Origin: a bacterium
GTDB taxonomy: Bacteria; UBA10199; JAIBAG01
Direction: 5' to 3'
Length of the DNA: 64,000 nucleotides
NCBI GenBank assembly: GCA_019695305.1
Contig: JAIBAG010000006.1
Coordinates: forward strand, 1 to 64,000
This document shows, piece by piece, positions 10,517-18,947 of this stretch. The position numbers and the translations under genes were made by a program. Numbering within the stretch: position 1 is the first letter of the stretch; each line of letters opens with the position of its first letter. The notes under the pieces were generated by a model. The model saw nothing but the letters and a program-made list of their open reading frames with translations. It made no database searches and had not been told where the DNA came from.

Positions 10517-10960
10517 ACGAATTTGCCGCAAGGCTTCACCGGCTACCATGGCCACGCTGCTGGATAGATTAAAGCTACGGATAGGACCAGTCATGGGTAT
10601 AGTCAGTGTGTAGTCGGCGTTTTTTTCTAAAAGATCTTTGGAAAGCCCGGCAGTTTCGGGCCCAAACACTAAAAAATCATTTTCTTTAAAACTAACCGAA
10701 GTATACGGCCTTTTGGATTTTGTCGTCAAATAATAATAGCGTCCGGTAGGATATTGTTGTTGAAGAGCCTCAAAAGACTCATGATAGGTTAAGTTGACAT
10801 GCTCCCAATAATCGAGCCCTGCACGCTTTAAATAGCGATCGTCGGTAGAAAAACCCAAAGGTTTTACTAAATGAAGTTTAAGCGATAGCCCGGCACACAA
10901 ACGCGCAATGTTACCGGTGTTAGGCGGAATTTGGGGATTTACCAAAACAATATTAAGCAT
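10493..10960 (-). CDS. trmL: tRNA (cytidine/uridine-34 2'-O)-methyltransferase TrmL
   Basis: A 155-residue SPOUT (SpoU) methyltransferase. It begins MLNIVLVNPQIPPNTGNIAR as in E. coli TrmL, contains KRAGLDYWEHV, FGPETAGLS and the knot region IPMTGPIRSFNLSSSVAMVAG. It methylates the wobble base of tRNA-Leu species. The ATG at 10960 is chosen over the ATG at 10975 because it matches the family start exactly and has AGAAAG in front. Its final residues (ESLIAYR) come from a dispersed repeat, so the C-terminus has been rewritten by repeat insertion without loss of the core. Confidence 0.93.
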   Translation of the reverse strand: MLNIVLVNPQIPPNTGNIARLCAGLSLKLHLVKPLGFSTDDRYLKRAGLDYWEHVNLTYHESFEALQQQYPTGRYYYLTTKSKRPYTSVSFKENDFLVFGPETAGLSKDLLEKNADYTLTIPMTGPIRSFNLSSSVAMVAGEALRQIRESLIAYR

Positions 10961-11010
10961 GGAACTTTCTTGCATACAAAAGCCTTATTTTTAAAGCTTT
11001 ATTTAAAAAC

Positions 11011-11037
11011 GCAACTTTTTTATAAGCTTGCCGATAA
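11011..11037 (+). promoter_or_regulatory. Candidate sigma-28-like promoter (GCAACTTT, N11, GCCGATAA)
   Basis: GCAACTTT at 11011-11018 and GCCGATAA at 11030-11037 have the 11-base spacing of flagellar sigma-28 promoters; the -10 octamer is identical to the E. coli consensus, but the -35 part differs. It ends ten bases before the ATG of the small secreted protein, so a transcript would be nearly leaderless. Confidence 0.4.
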
Positions 11038-11047
11038 TACAAGTAAG

Positions 11048-11371
11048 ATGATTAAAAAGCTGCTCCTCATTACCTTTTTACTGCTGGCCTCAACAGCCGC
11101 CCAAGCTCATAGCTTGAGGGTGGTAAGCTTTGCCCCGTCTTTTTTCTATTTACCCTATTATTCTTCCTTTTATTATTCACCCTTTGTACGTCCGATCTAT
11201 TTTACCCGCTATCCTCAATCTTATGCGGCTCAACTTACCCCTGTTGGCGAGGCTTTAAGGGCTGAGTGGGAAAATTATGACCAAAAAACTGCGAAACAGG
11301 AAGAAATATCAACCCCCCAGGCAACTTTAGACGGTTCTGATGTTATCTTAAAAAAGATACAAACCTATTAA
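11048..11371 (+). CDS. Small secreted protein, aromatic-rich, unknown
   Basis: A 107-residue protein with a clear signal peptide (MIKKLLLITFLLLASTAAQA, cleavage before HSLRV). The mature N-terminus is strikingly aromatic (APSFFYLPYYSSFYYSPFV), followed by a charged tail (ENYDQKTAKQEE). The start is the ATG at 11048; the longer open frame has no signal and no RBS. It precedes the NdvB-like gene by 57 bases on the same strand, so it may belong to the same transcript. I do not recognise the family. Confidence 0.6.
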   Translation: MIKKLLLITFLLLASTAAQAHSLRVVSFAPSFFYLPYYSSFYYSPFVRPIYFTRYPQSYAAQLTPVGEALRAEWENYDQKTAKQEEISTPQATLDGSDVILKKIQTY

Positions 11372-11428
11372 GATTTAACCCTTGTTACCCATATCAAGCT
11401 CTGCTAGAAAGCCACAGCCCTTACGCTT

Positions 11429-14026
11429 ATGAGATCTTCTTCGATTGCGATTTTAACTACCACTGTTGTTATCAGCTTTCTACTGTGGGTATTTATCAAT
11501 AAACCTCACCACCCTGTAGAATCAAGCTACCCTATCAACAGTATTTCATTTAATCCGTATCAACGTTACGAATCGCCCTTTAACGGCACGGTTATTACTC
11601 CCGATCATTTAGAAAAAGACATTCAGCTCCTTAAAAATAAATCTAAAACTCTGCGTTTGTATAGCTCCACTTTTGGTATGGAAATTACCCCCCAGGTAGC
11701 CAAAAAATATAAACTGAGCGTGATTGGCTGCGCTTTTATTCAGTATAAATTGGTTGATAACCCCCAAAATGATATAGAAGTAGACGCAGCCATTGAAATG
11801 GCCCGTAATAACAGAAATGTAACTAAACTTATTATTGGTAACGAAACACAGCTGCACAAAACCGTACCACAAGAAGAATTGGTAACCTATTTGGAACGGG
11901 CTCGCAAAAAATTACGCACTCCAGTATCCACAGCCGAACCTTGGGATTTTTGGATTACTAACCCTGAATTTGCCGATAATGTAGATTTTATTGCTATACA
12001 CGTACTACCTTACTGGGCCGAAATTCCTATTAATGAGGCCGTAGATTATGTAGTAGGCAAATACCGTGCGGTAAAAAACATGTATCCGTACAAAGAAGTA
12101 TTTATTGCCGAAACAGGCTGGCCCAGCGATGGCCCTCAAAGAGGAGCGGCAGTTCCTTCTGTAACAAACCAGGCACAATTTGTTCGCGACTTTATTGAAC
12201 GCGCCGAAAAAGAAAAAATTCCCTACAATATCATTGAAGCATTTGATCAACCCTGGAAACAATCCACAGAAGGTAATGTGGGAGAACACTGGGGCATTAT
12301 GGATGCCGACCGTCATGACAAATTTCCTATCAAAGGTCCGGTATTAGAAGATCCAAATTGGAAATACTGGGCTTTTGCCTCTACTATTTTGGGACTACTG
12401 GCCTCTAGTCTTTTTGTTTTAAGACGCCACGATCTGCATTTAAAAGGACGTATTTTTTCGGTATTCATGTTTCAGCTGGCAGCGGCTCTGGCCACACAGC
12501 TAGCCCGAGAAGCCTCCGATCAATACATGTCACCCGGAGACATTATTTTTTGGATGATTGTCATTACAGCTCAAACCCTGCTTGCTATTATTTTACTGAC
12601 GGATGCGGTAGAAATTGCCGACGTGGTGGGTAATGCACCGCTTAAAAGGCGCTATCTCCCGGCAAATGCCGATTTACCTCCAGATGCCCCTTTTGTTTCT
12701 ATCCATTTAGCTTGCTGTAAAGAACCACCGTCGATGGTGATTGCTACTATTGATAGCTTAGCTAAACTGGAATACCCCAACTACGAAGTGATTGTGGTTG
12801 ATAACAATACTCCCGATGAAAACCTATGGAAGCCCGTAGAAGCACGCTGTAAAGAGCTTGGTAAGCGTTTTAGATTTTTTCATTTAGAAAAATGGCCAGG
12901 CTTTAAAGCGGGAGCCCTTAATTTTGCATTAAAACAAACCGACCCACGTGCACAAGTTGTAGGTGTGGTAGACGCCGATTATGTAGTGGCCTCTAATTGG
13001 CTAAAAGCCACTCTTCCCTATTTTATTGCCGATAAAGATATTGCTTTAGTGCAAGCCCCGCAAGAACATCGTGAATGGAGTGATAATTTATTCACGCGTA
13101 TGGAAAACGATGAGTACACCGGCTTTTTTAGAATTGGCATGGTTCAGCGTAACGAACACAATGCTATTATCCAGCACGGCACCATGACACTCATCGACAG
13201 AGCTACATTAGTAAAGCTAAATGGCTGGGCCGAATGGTGCATTTGTGAAGATGCCGAACTGGGTTTACGTATCTTAAATGAAAAGAAAAAATCGGTTTAT
13301 CTCGATCACGCTTTTGGCCATGGACTTGTGCCCGATAGTTACGAAGCCTATGCCAAGCAACGTTTTAGATGGGCTTATGGGGCCATGCGTATTTTGCGAC
13401 ATCATTGGAAAACCATGTTTGGTTTAGAAGGTAATTTAAATCCGGCACAACGCTATCAGTTTGTTAAAGGCTGGCTTCCCTGGATTGGTGATTCGCTCCA
13501 CCTGCTCTTTACCTTTACAGGCTTGTTGTGGAGCGGCATGCTTATTTTTGATCCGCTTAAAACAGAATTTCCTGAGCCTATCTTTATTTATCCCGCGCTG
13601 GCACTGGTTGTATTACGTATTTTAGGTACTTTATGGACCTACACGGCTCGTGTAAAAATTGGCAAAAGAAGAACACTGATGGCCATGATAGCCGGAGGCG
13701 CTCTTACTCACCGTATTGCACGCGCTGTGATGCAGGGTTTAATTACCAACTCACAACCTTTCTATCGCACACCTAAAATGGATAAAGATGCCCCCATTCT
13801 TAAAAACCTGTTATCGGTACGCGAGGAAATTTTCTTTACTACTCTTTTATATGCATCGGCCTTTGGTGTTTATCGTGTTTTTGGAACCGTTAATTTTTCG
13901 GCCATTATTTGGATTGTTGCACTCATCATTCAAAGCTTTCCCTATTTAGCAGCCATTACGGCCGCTTTAGTAAGTGGTGCTTCTAGCCTAAAGCGCAAAA
14001 TGGAAATAAAGCAAAAAGCCGCATGA
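11429..14026 (+). CDS. NdvB-like glucan synthase: GH17 domain fused to GT2 glycosyltransferase
   Basis: An 865-residue inner-membrane protein. After an N-terminal transmembrane anchor, residues about 40-300 form a GH17 (beta-1,3-glucanase or transglycosylase) domain with likely catalytic glutamates E139 (IIGNETQL) and E228 (IAETGWPSDG). Two to three membrane helices (about 315-390) lead to a GT2 processive transferase with VVDNN, the DAD motif (D515, D517), the ED pair (E607, D608, in CEDAELGLR) and QRFRWAYG at 644, then further membrane helices. This order is that of NdvB-type proteins of Pseudomonas and Bradyrhizobium, which make periplasmic beta-1,3-linked (cyclic) glucans while the GH17 domain remodels chains. 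The product is inferred. No strong RBS is seen. Confidence 0.85.
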   Translation: MRSSSIAILTTTVVISFLLWVFINKPHHPVESSYPINSISFNPYQRYESPFNGTVITPDHLEKDIQLLKNKSKTLRLYSSTFGMEITPQVAKKYKLSVIGCAFIQYKLVDNPQNDIEVDAAIEMARNNRNVTKLIIGNETQLHKTVPQEELVTYLERARKKLRTPVSTAEPWDFWITNPEFADNVDFIAIHVLPYWAEIPINEAVDYVVGKYRAVKNMYPYKEVFIAETGWPSDGPQRGAAVPSVTNQAQFVRDFIERAEKEKIPYNIIEAFDQPWKQSTEGNVGEHWGIMDADRHDKFPIKGPVLEDPNWKYWAFASTILGLLASSLFVLRRHDLHLKGRIFSVFMFQLAAALATQLAREASDQYMSPGDIIFWMIVITAQTLLAIILLTDAVEIADVVGNAPLKRRYLPANADLPPDAPFVSIHLACCKEPPSMVIATIDSLAKLEYPNYEVIVVDNNTPDENLWKPVEARCKELGKRFRFFHLEKWPGFKAGALNFALKQTDPRAQVVGVVDADYVVASNWLKATLPYFIADKDIALVQAPQEHREWSDNLFTRMENDEYTGFFRIGMVQRNEHNAIIQHGTMTLIDRATLVKLNGWAEWCICEDAELGLRILNEKKKSVYLDHAFGHGLVPDSYEAYAKQRFRWAYGAMRILRHHWKTMFGLEGNLNPAQRYQFVKGWLPWIGDSLHLLFTFTGLLWSGMLIFDPLKTEFPEPIFIYPALALVVLRILGTLWTYTARVKIGKRRTLMAMIAGGALTHRIARAVMQGLITNSQPFYRTPKMDKDAPILKNLLSVREEIFFTTLLYASAFGVYRVFGTVNFSAIIWIVALIIQSFPYLAAITAALVSGASSLKRKMEIKQKAA

Positions 14027-15031: not shown

Positions 15032-16324
15032 ATGTCTCTTGCGGCTTACAAACAAAAAATTAAAACTCTCTCCGAGCGGATCATAGAAGCTCAAAAACCT
15101 ATTCGTATATTGGATGCCATTAAATGGGAGCCCTGGGTTGAAGCCGAAATTAAAAAGTGGAAATTTAAAAGTTTTCCTCATTTAAGTCCCGCTGATTATG
15201 CTAAAATCAAATTAGGATATAATCCGGCTCACAAAAAAGAGGAGTTTGTAGAAATTGCAGCTCAAATTGTTAGAAGCCTTGGGGCAAAAGATCCCGTTGG
15301 CCGCTTACTTCTTTCGATGACCGAACAATATATCGACGTGATACACATGGTGGAATCACGCGGAACTAAAAAGTTTTGGGAATATTCCAAAAAACTCTAC
15401 GGTTCCCCCAAAGACCACTTTTACGACAAGAATAAATCAACCCTCGATTTGGGTTTTATGCTCAATAATATTTTGGGGAAAATCCATGACTGCACCCCTG
15501 GCCCCGAGCAAATAGAAGATATTTCAGCGGGAAGAGCCGTCAACATATTAAATAAGCGTTTTAAAGATTATTTTCACGGGCTACCGGTAAAAGCACTTAT
15601 TTCGGATGGTATTATTGCTGATGCCGCAGCTGGCAGTGACAAAGTAAAAATAAAGCGGGGTGCTACATTTTCTAAACGAGATATTGATATTTTAGAAGTT
15701 CACGAGGGCTGGGTTCATTTAGGAACAACATTAAATGGAAAAAGTCAGAGCGTTGCCAAATGGCTGAGTAAGGGTCCTCCTCGCTGCACTACCACTCAAG
15801 AGGGGCTGGCTGTTATCATGGAAATTTTTTCGTTTCATACTTATCCTAAGCGCGCACAAACAATCAACAACCGCATTTTAGGCATTAACATGGCAGAAGA
15901 TGGTGCCAATATTTTAGATGTAATCCGTTTTTTTAGAGACCAGGGTTATGACGAAAATGAATGTCTTACCATGGCTAAACGTGTTTTTCGGGGAGGTCCA
16001 TTGGAAGGCGGAGCCCCTTTTACAAAAGATATTGTTTATTGCCGTGGCTTTGTAGAAAACTATAACTTCATGCGTGCGGCTATTCGCCTTGGAAAACCTC
16101 ATCTCATTCCTTTTTTATTTGTGGGAAAAGTGAATGTTCAGGACATCCCCCTCTTATACCGCCTGCATCAGGAAGGTATTGTTGATGCACCCAAAATTCT
16201 CCCCCCACAATTTCGCGATTTAAATGGAGTGGCCGTATGGATGGCTTTTTCTAGTTTTCTTAATCAGATTGATATGAACTTAATTCAGAAACACTACGAT
16301 GATTTGTTTAAGAAGTATCTTTAA
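15032..16324 (+). CDS. QEGLA-motif metalloprotease-like protein (DUF1704 / MATCAP-like)
   Basis: A 430-residue protein of the family named flavohemoglobin expression-modulating QEGLA motif protein. It has the HEGWVH motif (H224, E225, H229), which is the HEXXXH zinc site of MATCAP-type carboxypeptidases, and TTQEGLA with Q256 and E257. The eukaryotic relatives remove C-terminal tyrosine from tubulin; the bacterial substrate is unknown. The rest is mostly helical. It is preceded by 40 bases of AT-rich sequence and followed directly by a palindromic repeat. It stands alone without an evident partner gene. Confidence 0.8.
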   Translation: MSLAAYKQKIKTLSERIIEAQKPIRILDAIKWEPWVEAEIKKWKFKSFPHLSPADYAKIKLGYNPAHKKEEFVEIAAQIVRSLGAKDPVGRLLLSMTEQYIDVIHMVESRGTKKFWEYSKKLYGSPKDHFYDKNKSTLDLGFMLNNILGKIHDCTPGPEQIEDISAGRAVNILNKRFKDYFHGLPVKALISDGIIADAAAGSDKVKIKRGATFSKRDIDILEVHEGWVHLGTTLNGKSQSVAKWLSKGPPRCTTTQEGLAVIMEIFSFHTYPKRAQTINNRILGINMAEDGANILDVIRFFRDQGYDENECLTMAKRVFRGGPLEGGAPFTKDIVYCRGFVENYNFMRAAIRLGKPHLIPFLFVGKVNVQDIPLLYRLHQEGIVDAPKILPPQFRDLNGVAVWMAFSSFLNQIDMNLIQKHYDDLFKKYL

Positions 16325-17018: not shown

Positions 17019-17044
17019 TCACTTTTAGACAGAGGAAAAACTTT

Positions 17045-17308
17045 ATGAAAAAGAAAACAGTTGGCACTTTAGTTGCCACAGCCGCTTTTGGTTTAATGCT
17101 TGCCGGAAATGTTATGGCCACCGATGACCATGCTGCCGGAACCGAAACAACCGTTAAATGCAAAGGCGTTAACGAATGTAAAGGCCACGGAGCCTGCCAC
17201 AGCGCCACCAACAGTTGCGCCGGCAAAAACGAATGTAAAGGTAAAGGCTGGGTAAAAACAGCTACCGAAAAAGAATGTACCGATAAACACGGTACAGTTG
17301 AAAAGTAA
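17045..17308 (+). CDS. bufA: Bufferin-type RiPP precursor, BufA2-like periplasmic metallophore
   Basis: An 87-residue precursor with a signal peptide (residues 1-25, AAFGLMLAGNVMA) and six cysteines at 39, 45, 51, 58, 64 and 78 in the repeating context CKGVNECKGHGAC and SCAGKNECKGKGW, ending KECTDKHGTV. This pattern matches BufA2-type bufferins, whose cysteines are converted by a DUF692 multinuclear iron oxidase to thiooxazole-type heterocycles that bind copper in the periplasm. The two following genes encode exactly those partners (DUF692 and DUF2063), which makes the call strong. RBS AGAGGA. An intrinsic terminator follows within five bases. Confidence 0.88.
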   Translation: MKKKTVGTLVATAAFGLMLAGNVMATDDHAAGTETTVKCKGVNECKGHGACHSATNSCAGKNECKGKGWVKTATEKECTDKHGTVEK

Positions 17309-17312
17309 GACA

Positions 17313-17340
17313 AAAAAACCCCTCGCAAGAGGGGTTTTTT
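17313..17340 (+). terminator. Intrinsic terminator / attenuator between bufA and bufB
   Basis: CCCCTC (17319-17324), loop GCAA, GAGGGG (17329-17334) and six T; the flanking A6 extends the stem. It stands between the precursor gene and the oxidase gene, whose ATG is only seven bases after the T run. The GAGGGG of the stem is the only Shine-Dalgarno-like sequence in front of bufB. Confidence 0.9.
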
Positions 17341-17347
17341 ATTTCCT

Positions 17348-18199
17348 ATGAATTTTCCCTTTTTAGGTTTTGGCTTAGGTCTCCGCCCCAAGCATTATCC
17401 CACCATCACAACCCACTGGCCCAAGGTGGATTGGTTTGAAGCTTTATCTGAAAACTACATGATCCCGGGTGGACAACCCCTTTATTACTTAGATCAAATC
17501 GCTGCACGCTATCCTATAGTTCTCCACGGCGTGTCGATGTCCCTAGGCTCGGCTGACCCCATCAACAGAAAACATTTAAATGAATTAAAAAAACTGATGG
17601 CGCGTACCAAGGCTCGTTGGGTGTCCGATCACCTGTGCTGGACCGGTATTCAGAAACAAAACTCGCACGATCTTTTACCCTTGCCCTATACCGATGAAGC
17701 GCTCCACAATATTGTTTCCAAAATAAAACAAGTTCAAAACGAATTAGGGCAAGCTATTTTGGTAGAAAATGTTTCCAGCTATTTGGAATATACCCATTCC
17801 CATATTACCGAATGGGATTTTTTAAAGTTAGTCGCCCAAGAATCGGGTTGTTACCTCTTGCTCGATATTAACAATATTTATGTGAGTGCTAAAAATCACA
17901 ATTTTGATGCTGTAACGTATATAAATGCCATCCCTCAGGATAAGGTAAAACAGTTTCATCTGGCAGGTCATAGCAATTTAAAATCATTTTTACTCGATAC
18001 GCACGATCACGCGGTTAAAAAATCGGTATGGGAACTTTATCGTTACGCTTTAAAACGCTTTGGCCCCGTATCCACCATGATTGAACGAGACGATAAAATT
18101 CCAGCATTTGAAAAGCTTTTTGAAGAATTACAAATTGCAAAAAGGATTTATGAGGACGAGTTTACAAAAAACCCAAAATCTTATCTGGCGGCTTCTTAA
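17348..18199 (+). CDS. bufB: DUF692 multinuclear non-haem iron-dependent oxidase (MNIO), BufB
   Basis: A 283-residue TIM-barrel enzyme that modifies cysteines of the bufferin precursor. Family metal-site positions are present: H60 (LHGVSMSLGS), D94-H95 (SDHLCW), H107 (HDLLPLPYT), E140-N141 (LVENVSSY), D173 with INNIYV, H204/H208 (FHLAGH), TDHAV-type histidines near 219-221 and the IERDD segment near 250. The start (MNFPFLGFGLGLR) is typical of the family. It overlaps bufC by 50 bases. Iron content and the exact modification are inferred from the characterised Caulobacter bufferin systems. Confidence 0.92.
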   Translation: MNFPFLGFGLGLRPKHYPTITTHWPKVDWFEALSENYMIPGGQPLYYLDQIAARYPIVLHGVSMSLGSADPINRKHLNELKKLMARTKARWVSDHLCWTGIQKQNSHDLLPLPYTDEALHNIVSKIKQVQNELGQAILVENVSSYLEYTHSHITEWDFLKLVAQESGCYLLLDINNIYVSAKNHNFDAVTYINAIPQDKVKQFHLAGHSNLKSFLLDTHDHAVKKSVWELYRYALKRFGPVSTMIERDDKIPAFEKLFEELQIAKRIYEDEFTKNPKSYLAAS

Positions 18200-18947
18200 A
18201 GAACCCGAAGGAGTTGCAAAAGCTCTTAAGCGGAAAAAGATTTCTCTGCCCATTAAAGCGGGTAAAAAGCTCACCAGCGTGGAGCGATTGGATATTTATG
18301 CCAATATGTATTTTTTTAGAATCCGCGACGCCTTGATGAGTGATTACAAAGCGTGTTATCACGTGCTTGGCCATGACACCTTTCATAATCTGATTACCGA
18401 TTACTTGCAAAAAAACCCATCCCGTTATTATTCGCTGCGTTTCACGGGAGAAAAGCTGGCCACTTTTTTAAAAAAACATCCCCTATCAAAAAAACACCCC
18501 TATAGTTCAGATTTAGCTTCTCTTGAATGGGCACTGCTTGATTCGTTTGACGCTGCCGATGACAAACCTCTTACCATGGAAGATCTAAAAGCTTACACGC
18601 CAGATTCATGGGCCAATGCAACACTCACCACAAGCCCTTCGGTCATACTTATAAAATCGGCCTGGCCTCTCAAAATGATTTATGAGGCAGGCATAAAAAA
18701 GAAAAAATTGGGAAAAATAAAAAAGGAAGAAACGTATATCTGCGTATGGCGACAAGACTTTAAAGTTTATTATAGAACTCTTTCCAAAACAGAAGCAGGC
18801 CTTCTTAATAAACTTAAAAAAGAAATTACCGCCGGAGAACTTTCTCAAAAAATAGCCAAAACAGTGAAAACAGATGAAGCCCCACAAGAAATCGCCCGTT
18901 ATTTTAAAAAATGGATGCAAGCTGGACTTATCCTGAAACAATCGTAA
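18150..18947 (+). CDS. bufC: DUF2063 protein, BufC (precursor-recognition partner of the MNIO)
   Basis: A 265-residue protein. The N-terminal part (about 1-95) matches DUF2063 (SVERLDIYANMYFFRIRDALMSDY, HDTFHNLITDYLQKNPSRYYSLRF), the partner that recruits the RiPP leader or precursor to the DUF692 oxidase. The C-terminal half (about 130-265) is a winged-helix-like, lysine-rich domain. ATG at 18150 with AAAAAGGA five to six bases upstream, inside the bufB gene; the longer open frame to 18081 is not supported. Its 3' end overlaps the convergent SAM hydrolase gene by 20 bases. Confidence 0.88.
   Translation: MRTSLQKTQNLIWRLLKEPEGVAKALKRKKISLPIKAGKKLTSVERLDIYANMYFFRIRDALMSDYKACYHVLGHDTFHNLITDYLQKNPSRYYSLRFTGEKLATFLKKHPLSKKHPYSSDLASLEWALLDSFDAADDKPLTMEDLKAYTPDSWANATLTTSPSVILIKSAWPLKMIYEAGIKKKKLGKIKKEETYICVWRQDFKVYYRTLSKTEAGLLNKLKKEITAGELSQKIAKTVKTDEAPQEIARYFKKWMQAGLILKQS

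Follow-up and report, generated by a model that had tools for sequence, protein, structure and literature searches.

A very probable BufA2-type bufferin operon in an uncultured bacterium, with a tentative rule for its cysteine modification sites

Introduction

Does the gene cluster at positions 17045-18947 of contig JAIBAG010000006.1 encode a complete bufferin operon, and if so, does its peptide depart from the bufferins already described? The cluster lies in a 64,000-nucleotide stretch of DNA (positions 1 to 64,000 of the forward strand of the contig; hereafter the window) from an uncultured bacterium of GTDB lineage UBA10199, whose genome of 2.78 Mb, in 58 contigs, is 95.6% complete. The initial annotation had claimed that a six-cysteine precursor with a signal peptide, a DUF692 multinuclear iron oxidase (MNIO) and a DUF2063 partner follow in order and overlap, and that they form a complete bufferin operon outside the groups where such operons have been studied.

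Gene order and family membership

All three genes are indeed where they had been placed. They are read along the plus strand in the order precursor, DUF692/MNIO, DUF2063 protein, i.e., the bufA-bufB-bufC order of bufferin BGCs. The precursor gene bufA2 (17045-17308) encodes 87 residues, and a Shine-Dalgarno-like AGAGG (17031-17035) can be read 9 nt ahead of its ATG. The second gene, bufB (17348-18199), encodes an MNIO bufferin maturase of 283 residues, and bufC (18150-18947) its DUF2063 partner of 265 residues. The claimed overlap holds for only one of the junctions. With bufC starting at the ATG at 18150, bufB and bufC share 50 bp, while a gap of 39 bp separates the end of bufA (17308) from the start of bufB (17348) and rules out an overlap of all three genes. 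A TTG at 18081 was considered as the start of bufC and rejected, as the alignment with 14 relatives points to the ATG at 18150, giving 265 residues.

The initial annotation had named a profile search of the precursor as the place where a lack of bufferin homology would count against it. This search did not refute the claim: the precursor scores 75.5 bits against the NCBIfam model NF050166 (Cu_RiPP_BufA2, cut-off 60, E 2.9e-21). BufB reaches 374.7 bits against NF050167 (MNIO_BufB, cut-off 310, E 2.1e-112) and 358.9 bits against Pfam PF05114, and BufC about 54 bits against Pfam PF09836 (DUF2063, cut-off 27.2, E 1.7e-14). Membership in the three families is thus beyond chance. The fold comparison agrees, and together with the sequence comparison it assigns all three proteins to bufferin families with their key residues intact. 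Judged from its sequence, the window very probably carries an intact BufA2-type operon, bufA2-bufB-bufC, and the claim of completeness stands.

The Pfam search gave no DUF2282 match for the precursor, and the profile searches rule out membership in Buf1/DUF2282, the oxazolins (HvfA) and methanobactin. The sole match of the precursor in the PDB, the cytochrome c555 trimer 9l08, is weak (E 0.051) and was dismissed as chance.

The BufB enzyme and its BufC partner

The closest solved relative of BufB is 3bww, followed by TglH (8hci) and MbnB (7dz9), and its score against the MbnB model (58.6 bits) lies below the cut-off of 325. Residues D94, H95, E140, N141, D173, N175, N176, H204, H208, D217, H219 and E246 are invariant over 13 BufB sequences and are kept here. 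These acidic, histidine and asparagine residues are those expected of an MNIO centre, and the iron ligands would be among them. D248, nearly invariant in the same 13 sequences, occupies the position of the proposed catalytic base, which in FonB is D249 (PMC13097082).

According to Gadgil et al., MNIOs of the Lys-Cys type have Phe at position 250 and Arg at position 16 of FonB, and those of the Cys-Lys (BufA2) type have Asp at the 250 site with the 16 site unconserved (PMC13097082). In the BufB studied here, Asp249 (in ERDDKIP) is found at the site of Phe250, and Pro14 (in GLRP), not Arg, at the site of Arg16. Thus, the enzyme and the precursor, the latter with its CKG motifs, both agree with the Cys-Lys class.

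The AlphaFold model of BufC has a mean pLDDT of 90.7, and Foldseek aligns it to NGO1945 (3dee, E 1.1e-6) and to chain A of the TglHI complex (8hci_A, E 7.4e-6). The model indicates that BufC has the two-domain layout of MNIO partners, DUF2063 plus RRE (PME-type 1), which is described in PMC12452194. In profile searches, a 15-sequence BufC profile matches 3dee alone and weakly (E 0.017). Two further scores lie below their cut-offs, namely 23.2 bits for the NGO1945_C domain (cut-off 27) and 65.4 to 65.8 bits for the HvfC model NF050145 (cut-off 142), a model for the oxazolin partner.

Cysteine pattern of the precursor

The precursor starts with MKKKTVGTLVATAAFGLMLAGNVMA, after which comes the predicted mature part with its six cysteines, 62 residues long (residues 26-87, 17120-17305). 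In the predicted signal peptide (residues 1-25, 17045-17119), MKKK is followed by a hydrophobic stretch and by VMA, an end that resembles a cleavage site, and there is no lipobox cysteine. Judged by reading the translation alone, the pattern of n-, h- and c-regions is clear and of the Sec type, with the cleavage site placed by the same reading.

The cysteines are C39, C45, C51, C58, C64 and C78. Those at 39, 45, 58 and 64 stand in a C-x-G context; C51 and C78 do not. The precursor divides into two halves that resemble each other, with a pair of C-x-G cysteines plus one other cysteine in either half, and the near-repeats that had been noted in it are real: C-x-G-x-N-x-C-K-G is present twice, with Ala, not Lys, directly after C58. 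Six cysteines are reported for 90% of Buf2 (PMC12452194).

BufA2 is found in 9 of 46 genomes of the class, above the cut-off in all nine. The alignment of these nine precursors contains 18 invariant residues, among them all six cysteines and the glycines G41, G47, G60 and G66 at +2 from the C-x-G cysteines; at C51 and C78 this glycine is missing. The class pattern is C39-x-G-x-N-x-C45-x-G ... C51 ... C58-x-G-x-N-x-C64-x-G-x-G ... C78. The suspicion that the core pattern may differ in this host is not borne out, since the class precursors keep the pattern of the family. A BufA2 variant in genome G012 (L035:4723-5040) has eight cysteines, with two extra units in its second half (CGGKDG and the CGGKDG/CKGKN region), all of the C-x-G type. 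Eight cysteines against six provide a natural test of which BufA2 cysteines get modified.

In Buf1, modification is confined to the central cysteines, and the outer pair is joined in a disulfide (PMC12452194). Because C51 and C78 have no glycine at +2 and the extra units of G012 are all C-x-G, we liken these two to the outer cysteines of Buf1. We infer that C39, C45, C58 and C64 would be modified, while C51 and C78 would remain thiols or form a disulfide. Alternatively, the peptide could be a bufferin in which all six cysteines are converted, with a loss of 24 H, or in which some set other than the four C-x-G cysteines is modified. This is a serious alternative but a doubtful one: all six cysteines are invariant in the class, and every repeat cysteine of the EGKCG captophorins is modified (PMC13097082), whereas the restriction to the central cysteines in Buf1 and the missing glycine at C51 and C78 argue against it.

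The hairpin between bufA and bufB

The gap between bufA and bufB holds a terminator-like hairpin on the plus strand (17313-17340), AAAAAACCCCTC-GCAA-GAGGGGTTTTTT, with a 12-bp stem, a GCAA loop and a T-rich 3' arm. Its folding energy is -18.3 kcal/mol against a mean of -6.8 for shuffled sequences (z -4.56), none of the 200 shuffles is as stable, and the terminator scan also picks it up, with no other stem as long. No Rfam RNA that might explain it was found in the window. The obvious reading is that of a partial terminator, which would leave a surplus of substrate over enzyme. It may also gate the translation of bufB, because the only Shine-Dalgarno-like stretch before that gene, GAGGGG (17329-17334, 13 nt from the ATG), sits in its 3' arm.

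So strong a terminator-like structure could also mean that the operon is decayed or uncoupled, i.e., that transcription of bufBC stops here and the precursor works unmodified. We regard this as very improbable, as all three reading frames are intact and the active-site residues are conserved. Moreover, three loci from other phyla (L011, L015 and L016), where 65 to 151 bp separate bufA from the first possible start of bufB, have strong hairpins in these gaps too, and the genes downstream of these are likewise intact. In the class relatives, bufA and bufB abut or overlap or, in G033, read closely on, and the hairpin is absent, so any role of it in the expression ratio would be local.

No sigma-70-like site or recognisable promoter was seen ahead of bufA. 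The nine class loci have no motif in common there either, and the idea of a shared promoter or of an operator for a copper regulator was rejected.

Proposed function

By analogy with its studied relatives, the operon product is most likely a periplasmic copper buffer. In those relatives, the precursor is modified in the cytoplasm by BufC and BufB, which probably involves recognition of the signal peptide, and Sec export and periplasmic copper binding follow (PMC12452194, PMC13097082). By the same route, BufC would bind the precursor still bearing its signal peptide and offer it as substrate to BufB. This iron oxidase would turn cysteines, each minus four hydrogens, into 5-thiooxazoles. The modified peptide would then be exported by Sec, its signal peptide cleaved, and the thiooxazoles would chelate excess copper in the periplasm. 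The hairpin after bufA would end most transcripts and may cover the ribosome site of bufB, so that the peptide would be made in large excess over the enzyme.

The genome encodes two Cu-type P-ATPases that score above the TIGR01511 cut-off, so copper handling is relevant to this organism and the bufferin would form a further layer beside them; the idea that the genome has no other copper handling was dropped for the same reason. An HMA-domain search of the genome found no copper chaperones. Neither a copper regulator nor a DoxX gene adjoins the operon; the closest copies of DoxX lie on different contigs. One DoxX gene elsewhere in the genome comes near the HvfX model but stays below its cut-off (69.2 against 80).

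The peptide might instead buffer or detoxify another metal, such as gold, mercury or zinc, or act against oxidative stress. Bufferin operons are also named gold-induced genes, and fusions of MerC with bufferins exist; however, the Buf1 and Buf2 that have been studied act in copper stress (PMC12452194). No mercury or gold resistance gene was found beside the operon, and we consider a target other than copper unlikely.

Keeping copper as the ligand, we propose for the bufferins of this class that thiooxazoles arise at C39, C45, C58 and C64 and at no other cysteine, that a disulfide joins C51 to C78, that variants with extra C-x-G units raise the copper capacity, and that the hairpin sets the ratio of peptide to enzyme in the window genome. 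Taken as a whole, this proposal is tentative and rather less likely than not. If true, it provides a concrete and testable site rule for BufA2, for which modification sites are not given in PMC12452194 or PMC13097082.

Host and evolutionary origin

The host had been thought not to be an alphaproteobacterium, and ClpB agrees. The window ClpB is 77% identical to that of a genome of its own order, 66% to a genome of the class and 62% to two Hydrogenedentota MAGs, against 56-57% to alpha- and betaproteobacterial genomes. In the midpoint-rooted BufB tree, the window sequence pairs with a genome of the same order (G002, support 97/96), and the sequences from alphaproteobacteria, betaproteobacteria, myxobacteria and Hydrogenedentota fall together in a group of their own (support 100/99). 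A recent transfer from Alphaproteobacteria is thus unsupported, and inheritance within the class would be the simpler reading of these sequences.

The novelty that had been claimed for a bufferin operon outside the studied groups does not hold up. Related BufB loci are also found in Myxococcales, Hydrogenedentota and Melainabacteria MAGs, and since Buf2 bufferins have been reported in various taxonomic groups (PMC12452194), their occurrence here is no expansion of principle. It extends a known family of copper-buffering peptides to another uncultured bacterial class, with an operon that is intact but an ordinary BufA2, and leaves the concept of bufferins unchanged.

Other MNIO loci

The same genome has a second MNIO locus (L025:3863-5636; contig C23, about 10862-12635), again with a precursor, an MNIO and a DUF2063 protein, and this locus is less ordinary than the operon in the window. 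Its precursor of 77 residues has a signal peptide and only two cysteines, at the extreme C-terminus (EGACGQGSCG), and possibly belongs to the published CxxxxC precursor group (C-GQGS-C). The MNIO falls just under the cut-offs of HvfB (303.8 against 360) and BufB (286.3 against 310) and has Asn at the specificity site.

MNIOs beside precursors with a CGxGxCG-like C-terminal motif occur in eight genomes of the class (L050, L051, L052, L053, L054, L055, L056 and L057). The N-terminal part of these precursors is conserved, and most have KC[SGA]xDK/EK-type repeats ahead of the motif. No NCBIfam precursor model matched the CGxGxCG-type precursors that were scanned (seven aligned, the window genome's own included). 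The precursor at L049:1191-1466 is made up of CK[AG]KDx hexapeptides of the Cys-Lys type, repeated almost regularly and with seven cysteines in all. Next to it lie a DoxX-like gene and an MNIO of the BufB type, and its score against BufA2 is only 19.8 bits. An MNIO and a DUF2063-type partner are apparently fused in one reading frame at two loci: L011:3980-5683 (567 residues, hit by the BufB as well as the BufC queries) and L054:1465-3144 (a frame of 560 residues, with a presumed partner in its C-terminal half).

Ahead of the operon, the window encodes at 15032-16324 a protein that matches PF08014 (MATCAP) over the full length with 395 bits. This family takes its name from tyrosine carboxypeptidases of eukaryotic tubulin.

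Comparison with known systems

The closest known system is BufA2/Buf2 (Buf_6/12Cys), e.g., of Caulobacter vibrioides, which has the six cysteines, the bufABC order, the MNIO with its DUF2063 partner and, as predicted for the window precursor, a Sec signal peptide in common with the window operon. The latter differs in its hairpin between bufA and bufB, in having no DoxX gene alongside and in its non-alphaproteobacterial, uncultured host. Captophorins with EGKCG repeats (oxazolin HvfABC, fontiphorin FonABC) share the enzyme superfamily, the PME-type 1 partner and, presumably, the 5-thiooxazole chemistry. However, the window precursor is without EGKCG repeats, its MNIO has Asp instead of Phe and Pro in place of Arg16, and the scores stay below the HvfB and HvfC cut-offs. 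Buf1 (DUF2282) is alike in operon logic and presumed function, but its precursors are a four-cysteine family, and the window precursor has no DUF2282 match. Methanobactin (MbnABC) and TglHI have similar folds of MNIO and partner; in contrast to these systems, BufB scores below the MbnB cut-off and the window precursor has a predicted signal peptide.
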